A DNA stretch of 64,000 nucleotides. Source: Desulfoscipio gibsoniae DSM 7213. GTDB taxonomy: Bacteria > Bacillota > Desulfotomaculia > Desulfotomaculales > Desulfallaceae. A program made the position numbers and the translations under genes. The stretch's first letter is position 1; each line of letters opens with the position of its first letter. The stretch lies in contig NC_021184.1 of NCBI RefSeq assembly GCF_000233715.2, positions 1,644,501 through 1,708,500 of the forward strand, written 5' to 3'. Below are positions 13,165 through 15,277 of the stretch, piece after piece. The notes below the pieces were generated by a model. It worked only from the letters and a program-made list of their open reading frames with translations, was not told the DNA's origin and made no database searches.

Positions 13165-13304
13165 ATAAGTCTTCCTTTATCAAACTTTTTTTTACCAAAT
13201 ATTCAACTAGAATATCTTTATTTCCTGCAATCTATTTAAAGCTCTATATTCAATATTGGCCGGGCAACGTGTTAAAAGCAGTATGGTAATGAATTATTTA
13301 TAAT

Positions 13305-13799
13305 AAACGGCATTTCTTTTCACTCATAGACATCCTCTAATTGGCCATAATACTAATCGTGAGGTTCGTAATGGCTGAGCCAAAATTGTTACAGGGTCAT
13401 AACGGCTCTGTAATAGTCGGCCAAAGGTTAATATTAGGTCGTAAAGGCTTGGTATTAGCCGGAGGGCAGATTGATAAATGTTCTGGCAGGCTATATTGCA
13501 GTCCAAACGATTGTAATATGGTCGTAAGGAATGTTTACCAGTCGAGCTAAGATTATTATGGATACTGAGTAATTTTTAAAGCGTTTTAAAAATTGCGTTG
13601 GTCTGCAGTAGTCGAGAGATTGCTGCAGGCTCATAAGGTATTCATAATGGTCGAGTAAAGATCATTATGGGTGTTGTAATGGTTCATGGTAGCCGAAAGG
13701 TTGTCGTGTGGGCTACTCAGATGCTTATAGTGGTTATAGCGTAGGTCATTACGGGCTTATTAAAAACCCTCTTCCTTTAATATGGAGGAGGGTTTTTTC
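13305..13799 (+). ncRNA. Unclassified hairpin-array RNA (~490 nt)
   Basis: No gene fits here, but the plus strand forms a row of hairpins whose stems use many G-U pairs, which only pair if this strand is the RNA. Examples: 13351-13370 (loop GTGA), 13391-13411, 13429-13457 (12 bp, loop GTAAA), 13569-13596 (12 bp), 13603-13628 (11 bp, loop GAGA), 13643-13669 (10 bp, loop GAGTAAA), 13685-13708 (10 bp, GAAA loop). Several loops are GNRA-like. A TATAAT box lies at 13299-13304 and a strong terminator ends the unit. It resembles no RNA family I can name. Confidence 0.65.
13765..13799 (+). terminator. Terminator of hairpin-array RNA
   Basis: Eleven-pair stem AACCCTCTTCC / GGAGGAGGGTT (one G-U) followed by a T run at 13791-13798. 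Confidence 0.85.
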
Positions 13800-13865
13800 T
13801 TTCTCAAAGGAACTTAATAAACCCCGTTTAGAATAAGTTTATTTAGATGAACACCCTTTTATTTC

Positions 13866-14630
13866 CTAAGTTTTATTACTAACCAGTGTTATGGCGATCT
13901 CACTCACTTCATTAGAGGTTAGTTCTATCCCTTTATTATTAAGTATCAGCTTATGTAACTCGCCCGGCAAGCAAATTAAAGTATCCCCAGGTGGTACTAC
14001 TTTTGCTGCTATATTGAGTTTAGCGTTAGAGTTCGCCAATACAATGATAGAGTATATTTTAATATTCAAACCTAGCCGTTTCTTGAGGTATCTTCCCAAC
14101 GATAAGACATGAACAGCATTTTGTTCAGCAGGGCTGGTTTTAACGGGAACCCAATGACTAAGATGAAAGCGGTACCAATTTCCATTCTCATCGCAACCGG
14201 CATTGTTCCAGTTCTTTGTTTCCAAGCAAAAAATGCCAGTTGGTCCAATGGCTATATGGTCAATCTGGGCTCCATCTAATTTAATGTCATTAATTATAAG
14301 CCAGCCTTCAGGCAGCCTATCCAAAATGTTAGCAACAAGTACCTCTCCGCTCAGGCCTTTAAGTATTTTCTCGCTTTCGATGCTGGAAGGGGATAGCTTC
14401 TGTACCAAAAGGATCAAAACCATTATAAAAATCCAGGCAAATAGCAGTAATATGGTAAATGCAGCGTTATTACAGAATAGCCACGTAATGAGGCATGCAA
14501 TTAGGCCAAAAGCCATGAGCATAGTAAATAATTTTAAGGGGTTCGATTTTTTAGGGCTTTTGCTTTCTATGTTTATAATTTGTTTGTTTAATGATCTCGG
14601 CCATTGTAATGTTTCAGCCACGTTTTTCAC
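13866..14630 (-). CDS. Membrane-anchored NERD-domain protein
   Basis: 254 aa. Two adjacent membrane spans (about residues 32-50 and 55-78) precede a NERD (nuclease-related) domain: LSGEVLVANILDRLP, QIDHIAIGPTGIFCLETKNWNN with the restriction-like D...E-x-K core. NERD proteins are predicted nucleases or nucleic-acid processing factors, often in accessory DNA. The C-terminal ~60 residues are unassigned. The convergent ncRNA terminator lies 70 bp from its stop. Confidence 0.75.
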   Translation of the reverse strand: MKNVAETLQWPRSLNKQIINIESKSPKKSNPLKLFTMLMAFGLIACLITWLFCNNAAFTILLLFAWIFIMVLILLVQKLSPSSIESEKILKGLSGEVLVANILDRLPEGWLIINDIKLDGAQIDHIAIGPTGIFCLETKNWNNAGCDENGNWYRFHLSHWVPVKTSPAEQNAVHVLSLGRYLKKRLGLNIKIYSIIVLANSNAKLNIAAKVVPPGDTLICLPGELHKLILNNKGIELTSNEVSEIAITLVSNKT

Positions 14631-14899: not shown

Positions 14900-15277
14900 T
14901 TACTTAAGAACGTATTGCGCTAAGACACTTTGAAGCTCATAAATATTTAAGCTTTTATTGAATTGCTTGGAAATAGGGGTTGAATTACCAGATATCCAAA
15001 TTTTGAGCTCAGCATCAAGGTCAAAATGTCCTGCTGTTTCAATGCTGAAATGAGTAATACTTCTAAAGGGAATTGAGTGATATTCCATCTTTTTTCCAGT
15101 AACCCCTTGTTTGTCAACAAGTATAAGACGCTTATTTGTGAAAATAAACATATCACGGACAAGTTTATAAGCCTTTTCAATTTGTTCAGAGGGGGCAAGT
15201 ACATTAGCAAATTCTTTTTGTACTTCTACAATATTAACCTCCGAGGCATTTCCCATTAAACCACTTAATAAGCCCAT
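14900..15277 (-). CDS. Bacterial PH-domain protein
   Basis: 125 aa, full-length for the short bPH group (YvbH/PH_1-like): AYKLVRDMFIFTNKRLILVDKQG, then IPFRSITHFSIETAG, and a final amphipathic helix. These small PH-like proteins form rings and have been tied to stress or membrane processes; exact role unknown. The upstream region has AGATCTCC-type (GGAGAT) ribosome-binding site. Confidence 0.75.
   Translation of the reverse strand: MGLLSGLMGNASEVNIVEVQKEFANVLAPSEQIEKAYKLVRDMFIFTNKRLILVDKQGVTGKKMEYHSIPFRSITHFSIETAGHFDLDAELKIWISGNSTPISKQFNKSLNIYELQSVLAQYVLK

Follow-up and report, generated by a model that had tools for sequence, protein, structure and literature searches.

On the plus strand of the window, by which we mean the whole 64,000-nucleotide stretch of the Desulfoscipio gibsoniae genome that was analysed, positions 13343-13800 form a free-standing gene that comprises a structured RNA of ~440 nt and a terminator. 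The best explanation overall, to which we assign a probability of roughly 0.55, is that the RNA, which exists in multiple copies, is transcribed in the forespore by sigma-G/sigma-F and may be abundant in the spore as a structural or RNP component. The initial annotation of the region had proposed a large, ornate, structured plus-strand RNA with its own promoter and terminator, and this is supported. It did not recognise the stem that closes the fold (P1), the actual promoter with its forespore-like sequence, the multi-copy nature of the family and the distribution among spore-formers.

Structure of the RNA gene

The predicted folding energy of 13290-13820 (plus strand) was -203.2 kcal/mol (z = -12.3). 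Dinucleotide shuffles gave -131.4 +/- 5.8 kcal/mol, and not one of the 100 reached so low a value. A protein-coding reading was rejected, with stops present in every frame of 13341-13800 on both strands. We aligned 62 copies of the RNA, for which 60 stretches were retrieved. In the resulting layout, P1 encloses P2, P3, a two-part P4, P5 (with an insert and hairpin P5b) and a two-part P6, and the terminator follows. The parts of the gene in the window are listed here; percentages refer to alignment cells that are paired, and double changes are changes on both sides of a pair.

13324-13329, plus strand: -35 element TCATAG (family consensus GHATA); core positions A 84, T 90 and A 73 in the 102-copy profile
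13343-13352, plus strand: -10 element GGCCATAATA (GGnCATAMTA in the family); three positions fixed as A, T and A in 102 copies
13362-13376, plus strand: 5' strand of P1, the long-range closing stem; 99.4% paired, double changes in 8/15 pairs
13379-13421, plus strand: arm P2 (13379-13398/13404-13421), variable loop; 98.6% paired, double changes in 10/18 pairs
13426-13460, plus strand: arm P3 (13426-13440/13446-13460), variable loop; 98.4% paired, double changes in 9/15 pairs
13464-13548, plus strand: two-part arm P4, with P4a (13469-13484/13528-13543), P4b (13489-13503/13509-13523) and an internal loop; 97.8% and 98.9% paired
within 13464-13548, plus strand: conserved GAGCTAAG junction, directly after P4
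13551-13652, plus strand: arm P5 (13551-13566/13637-13652); double changes in 12/16 pairs
13567-13600, plus strand: length-variable insert within P5
13601-13630, plus strand: hairpin P5b with GNRA loop (61/62); double changes in 7/13 pairs
13655-13740, plus strand: arm P6, with P6a (13660-13675/13720-13735; 99.1% paired) and P6b (13680-13694/13699-13715; 98.7% paired)
13744-13758, plus strand: 3' strand of P1, pairing with 13362-13376
13763-13800, plus strand: intrinsic terminator, formed by helix 13763-13774/13785-13796 with a T run; 93.6% paired, double changes in 12/12 pairs

The initial annotation had argued from G-U pairs that the plus strand must be the RNA, and this argument was upheld. 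G-U occupied 2320 of 9588 consensus pair cells (~24%) in the 62-copy alignment, and the plus strand was the better folder in all 62 sequences (62/62). For this alignment, the RNAalifold energy was -232 on the plus strand and -35 on the reverse complement. The terminator that had been proposed was likewise confirmed by the double changes in every pair of its helix among homologues, and 50 of the 62 aligned rows had TTT within their final 14 nt.

Not all of the proposed hairpins survived. The first of these (13343-13376, with a GTGA loop) does not represent the conserved fold, as its 13 pairs form in 561/764 cells (73.4%); the 3' arm of this hairpin belongs to P1, where its distant partner is 13744-13758. 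What had been read as a GAGTAAA loop is actually the P5/P6 junction. The local hairpin at this position can form in 88.3% of cells, with double changes in 21 cells, compared to 98.4% and 96.0% for the consensus partners P5 and P6a, where double changes were found in 89 and 108 cells, respectively. Hairpins between neighbouring strands across the junctions form in 63-88% of cells, versus 96-99% for the consensus helices, and show fewer double changes. A GUCGAGC-AAG-like sequence is repeated across the junctions, and it is because of this repetition that the alternative hairpins are partly possible; the RNA may adopt an alternative fold transiently. The repeated GNRA loops of the initial annotation were retained in P5b (GAGA 44, GAAA 11, GGGA 4, GCGA 1 and GUGA 1) and in P6b, where the loop was GAAA in 60/62 copies, and were not retained in P2, P3 and P4, whose loop sequences varied among the 62 copies.

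Compensatory changes in the stems

RNAalifold predicted 155 pairs from the 62 copies, 93 of them with double changes. In a prediction-free count over 154 pairs, 98.4% of 9526 cells could pair, and 845 cells were changed on both sides, compared to 212 +/- 17 in shuffles that did not keep the relatedness of the sequences. When the 3' partner was displaced by 1-3 columns, pairing fell to 32-43%; this control is biased toward the structure since the structure was derived from the same alignment. Comparison of the stems among homologues had been suggested as a check on the initial annotation, and its outcome was favourable: 93/154 pairs were changed on both sides among the 62 homologues, so that the stems of this large structured noncoding RNA are kept by compensatory changes when judged against both shuffled and slid controls.

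A broad, phylum-wide set of 101 sequences with <92% identity gave a consensus energy of -195 kcal/mol. The top 23 covarying column pairs in this set lay inside or adjoining the structure, and 74 of the top 120 fell within it. The highest-ranked pairs outside the structure (ranks 23, 24 and 30, counted from 0) resemble extensions of P5/P5b, and most of the others look like the product of shared ancestry; we do not infer a pseudoknot. These sequences show that the free-standing unit of promoter, closed multi-arm fold of ~440 nt and terminator has been maintained by selection, which acts on both the structure and the sequence of the junctions.

A covariance model of the P3-P4 region, built from 45 sequences, scored the P5-P6 half of the molecule as well (in one case, matches of 157.8 and 51.4 bits separated by 210 nt), which suggests that the RNA probably arose by internal duplication.

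A family apparently not described before

That no known family would match had been anticipated in the initial annotation, and we found this to be so. No family in Rfam 15 reached its gathering score at the RNA locus, a permissive scan of 13200-13900 (E<=5) returned only chance-level matches far under the cut-offs, and no Rfam family lay over the RNA at 14 further member loci. The literature searched, with partial coverage consisting mainly of abstracts, contained no description of the RNA. The RNA therefore apparently represents an undescribed family of large noncoding RNA.

In size and ornateness it is closest to OLE, ROOL and GOLLD, which are likewise noncoding RNAs of large size and complex fold, in which junctions are conserved and GNRA loops occur. 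Rfam includes families for all three, and none of them was present among the all-family Rfam matches at the RNA. ROOL and GOLLD are found in phages and prophages near tRNA islands (PMC12286853). The new RNA differs from them in having a spore-type promoter and no viral pattern match: a scan of a viral genome collection with the conserved-core pattern gave no match, nor did a plasmid search, and the single match in a phage search (25 nt, E 0.5) was taken as chance. An origin from a phage, plasmid or virus is thus unsupported.

The 6S RNA (RF00013) is also free-standing and structured, but its fold differs, and RF00013 was not matched at the RNA locus or at the 14 member loci. Separate 6S genes were present in 21/21 relatives searched, and we therefore rejected the idea that the new RNA is a replacement for 6S. 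The two genes are close in a few genomes. In five of them, a 6S gene lies ~130 nt to ~10 kb from a copy of the RNA (L069 2198-2370; G022 C1:1081845; G016 C20:34852; G020 C27:10331; G021 C6:218289), and this arrangement may indicate the ancestral site.

When 100 relatives were searched at the DNA level, the best match had E<=1e-8 in 64; a tally of 88/100 at E<=1 takes in chance matches. The conserved-core pattern matched 76 stretches in named-species genomes, of which 75 were members by profile. The remaining one, Heimdallarchaeota contig L140, was a chance pattern match with no profile match and was rejected. Named carriers include Pelotomaculum, Desulfoscipio, Desulfofundulus, Sporotomaculum, Desulfotruncus, Propionispora, Pelosinus and Lucifera, and no Bacillus record was present among the 76 exact-pattern stretches. 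We collected at least 110 nonredundant copies in all, and divergent members were long, mostly near full-length homologues. The P3-P4 model matched 116/299 genomes and 89/215 genera in a sample of the phylum, and 40/200 genomes in a sample of the Negativicutes, the class of Pelosinus, under filters strict enough that weak matches can be lost in both searches.

A promoter of forespore-like sequence

Upstream of 102 copies, we found the common sequence GHATA-n13/14-GGnCATAMTA and little else. This is similar to the sigma-G/sigma-F consensus. The initial annotation was correct in giving the RNA its own promoter, but not in placing it at the TATAAT at 13299; the conserved elements are those at 13324-13329 and 13343-13352. 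A matrix of the promoter, scanned over both strands of the window, had its best match (18.3) at the RNA's own promoter, followed by 14.1 for the next, and 21 occurrences scored >=11. A strict pattern of the promoter had no match in the D. gibsoniae genome, the RNA copies included, because it required G at the first -35 position, where the copy in the window has T.

The placement of the promoter was evaluated on held-out members, the divergent loci L203-L222, each of which is <=78.5% identical to any training copy (L215 and L218 were unscored). The -10 element was at its fixed place in 16/18 members, and 15/18 scored >=11; the other three scored <11, one of them with its best match elsewhere.

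We then scanned the matrix over the 150 nt preceding each of 30 SASP (spore-protein) genes of relatives from the same order, as a test of the sigma factor. In 21/30 upstream regions, the best match was equalled by <=5 of 200 shuffles, while the other 9 were poor matches. Two SASP genes carry GGCCATAATA, the same ten letters as the -10 element in the window. An AbrB-type gene, which we presume to be spoVT, lies upstream of the RNA in the same direction in 8/110 loci. In Clostridioides difficile, SASP genes and spoVT are described as being under both SigF and SigG, with overlapping promoter consensus sequences (PMC7438776), and sspE is listed as sigma-G-responsive in another study (PMC3174212).

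Distribution among spore-formers

We compared the occurrence of the RNA with that of SASP genes (PF00269), which were present in 256/299 genomes of the phylum sample and in 53/200 of the Negativicutes sample. The RNA was found in 116/256 SASP-bearing and 0/43 SASP-less genomes of the phylum (Fisher 8e-11, a value that ignores shared ancestry), and in 40/53 SASP-bearing and 0/147 SASP-less genomes of the Negativicutes (Fisher 4e-31, which likewise ignores shared ancestry). The RNA and SASP scans of the Negativicutes used samples of the same kind and size with shared handles, the genomes without a match being listed in part. In an order-level sample, both SASP-less genomes were also without the RNA. 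The converse does not hold, as the strict-filter search gave no RNA match in 140/256 and 13/53 SASP-bearing genomes, and the RNA is therefore not required for sporulation as such.

The RNA thus has a promoter similar to those that the forespore genes of its carriers use, and was matched only in spore-formers (0/43 and 0/147 among the others). SASP genes share with it the promoter layout, the several copies per genome and the restriction to spore-formers; they differ in encoding protein, and in being present in the 140/256 SASP-bearing genomes of the phylum sample where the RNA was unmatched.

Two relatives have a SASP gene close to the RNA, at a distance of 52-75 nt and in the same orientation (G013 C6:34670-35380; G011 C87:29261-29983).

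Copies and neighbouring genes

The D. gibsoniae genome (4,855,529 bases, one contig) contains four strong copies of the RNA, all on the plus strand. Each is closest to a copy in a sister genome (88-94%), and some of the flanks match too, indicating that the loci are old. Paralogues in genomes of the Desulfotomaculum group differ by 10-20%, and near-identity of copies is therefore not general. Two Negativicutes genomes, with seven and six full copies, respectively, present a different picture: copies within a genome are 93-99% identical, unlike their surroundings, and are alike from ~30 nt before to ~30-35 nt past the RNA model. Five RNA positions are common to both genomes, flanks included. 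Recent spread or gene conversion would account for the near-identical copies, and either would suggest that the RNA is needed in large amounts.

Fragments of the RNA that resemble decayed copies were seen in two Negativicutes genomes (L245 1076-4048; L244 2499-2592), and tandem pairs in Sporotomaculum (L025 4166-5126) and in a MAG named Dethiobacter (L108 3706-4715).

The surroundings of 110 copies contain 868 reading frames, and the largest cluster of neighbours in this set occurred at 15/110 loci, on the strand opposite to the RNA. We take this cluster to be ileS, and others to be lspA, rluD, thiC and rarA; a upp neighbour was confirmed as UPRTase. The neighbours are mostly housekeeping genes, and no gene is constant around the 110 copies, from which we infer that the RNA acts in trans. 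The genes that follow the RNA in the window are as follows.

13866-14630, opposite strand to the RNA: NERD-domain gene, between the RNA and the bPH_1 gene
14900-15277: bPH_1 gene, with a homologue directly after the RNA in two sister genomes

The initial annotation had placed the RNA inside a genomic island. This holds in part, since the bPH_1 homologue follows the RNA immediately in the two sister genomes and the NERD gene intervenes here. At two of the four copies in the genome, a nuclease-type gene lies 3' of the RNA in the opposite direction (Mrr_cat, L011 4793-5719, and the NERD gene of the window), which is probably due to chance.

Possible roles of the RNA

The promoter and the distribution make it very likely that the RNA is transcribed in the forespore by sigma-G, and probably also by sigma-F. 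The closest precedent for such expression is Bvs196 of B. velezensis (B. subtilis S547/S357), which, together with CsfG, is described as an independent, structured noncoding RNA confined to the forespore and controlled by sigma-F and sigma-G (PMC9147052); by analogy, expression of the new RNA probably works in the same way. Bvs196 is 294 nt long and was described from Bacillus, whereas the new RNA is ~440 nt.

In the scheme that we propose, forespore transcription by sigma-G, and probably also sigma-F, would be followed by folding of the RNA into a closed, GNRA-bearing particle. The RNA would then accumulate and act in trans, serving the forespore or spore core as a scaffold or RNP. We suggest, tentatively and at somewhat less than even odds, that the RNA is needed in quantity, like SASPs, as a stable scaffold or RNP that aids dormancy, resistance or revival. 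The suggestion is made because there are several copies per genome, some of them near-identical and dispersed; because the promoter is a strong consensus one; because the closed fold, the GNRA loops and the invariant junctions resemble those engaged in tertiary or protein contacts; and because the variable P2-P4 loops are unlike antisense seeds. More doubtful is the fuller proposal that the RNA represents a new class of large RNA and is a dedicated building block of the endospore core, acting in a quantity-dependent manner as an RNA counterpart of SASPs, made only in the forespore and required, as a particle alone or with protein, for dormancy, resistance or revival in a sizeable fraction of the spore-forming Bacillota beyond the usual Bacillus models. 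The view of the RNA as a stable component is weakened by the reported degradation of spore mRNA on germination and fragmentation of rRNA in stored spores (PMC7649253).

The RNA could, with a rather modest likelihood, be a regulatory RNA of the forespore, acting in trans on mRNAs or on RNA polymerase in the manner of Bvs196 or 6S, and not a bulk structural molecule. Its promoter is of the same kind as that of Bvs196, whose deletion alters spore resistance to heat and UV (PMC9147052), and its layout is that of a free-standing, trans-acting RNA. However, the P2, P3 and P4 loops vary and so offer no conserved seed, and conservation of unpaired sequence is found in the junctions; the several copies per genome suggest quantity; and with a separate 6S in 21/21 relatives the RNA is no substitute for 6S.

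It is unlikely, though conceivable, that the RNA acts on the translation machinery in the forespore, binding to ribosomes or to a ribosomal or other RNA-binding protein and thereby silencing or storing its partner. Specific contacts of this sort are suggested by the invariant junctions and GNRA loops, and OLE has been proposed to sequester a ribosomal protein (PMC12286853), but no partner gene lies near the RNA at the 110 loci. A stable store of ribonucleotides, degraded at germination, appears very improbable: spore RNA is thought to supply ribonucleotides during germination (PMC7649253), but a reserve would have no need for invariant junctions or for double changes in 93/154 pairs.

We consider it just as improbable that the RNA is a mobile or selfish element, such as a non-autonomous transposon, folded end to end. 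The dispersed copies with 93-99% identity in the two Negativicutes genomes and the tandem pairs in L025 and L108 would fit such an element. Against this, positions are common to related genomes (five pairs with flanks; the L010 and L011 groups), the structure is kept over great divergence with the promoter at a fixed place, the 110 copies have no conserved neighbour gene, and the scans for viruses and plasmids gave 0 matches and that for phages one 25-nt match at chance level. Finally, although a structured RNA in an intergenic gap could be a riboswitch or cis leader of the next gene, this was ruled out by the neighbours, as no downstream gene on the same strand is conserved (the largest cluster, at 15/110 loci, is on the opposite strand), the next gene in the window is also on the opposite strand, and the terminator closes the unit.

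To our knowledge, large bacterial RNA classes of such size are few, and most are without a known moment of action. Here, the promoter and the distribution both implicate a single developmental compartment, the forespore, which makes the role of the RNA testable by ordinary genetics in a culturable spore-former. If the structural reading is true, spores hold a dedicated RNA component besides their dedicated proteins. Even if the RNA is a regulator, a family in 89/215 sampled genera, and in the Negativicutes, that has no Rfam entry represents a considerable gap in annotation.

Two further observations concern riboswitches in this genome. Another of the RNA copies is followed, after ~80 nt, by a cobalamin riboswitch (L009 4825-5006), and the window itself carries a tandem pair of molybdenum/tungsten riboswitches at 874-995 and 1049-1166.
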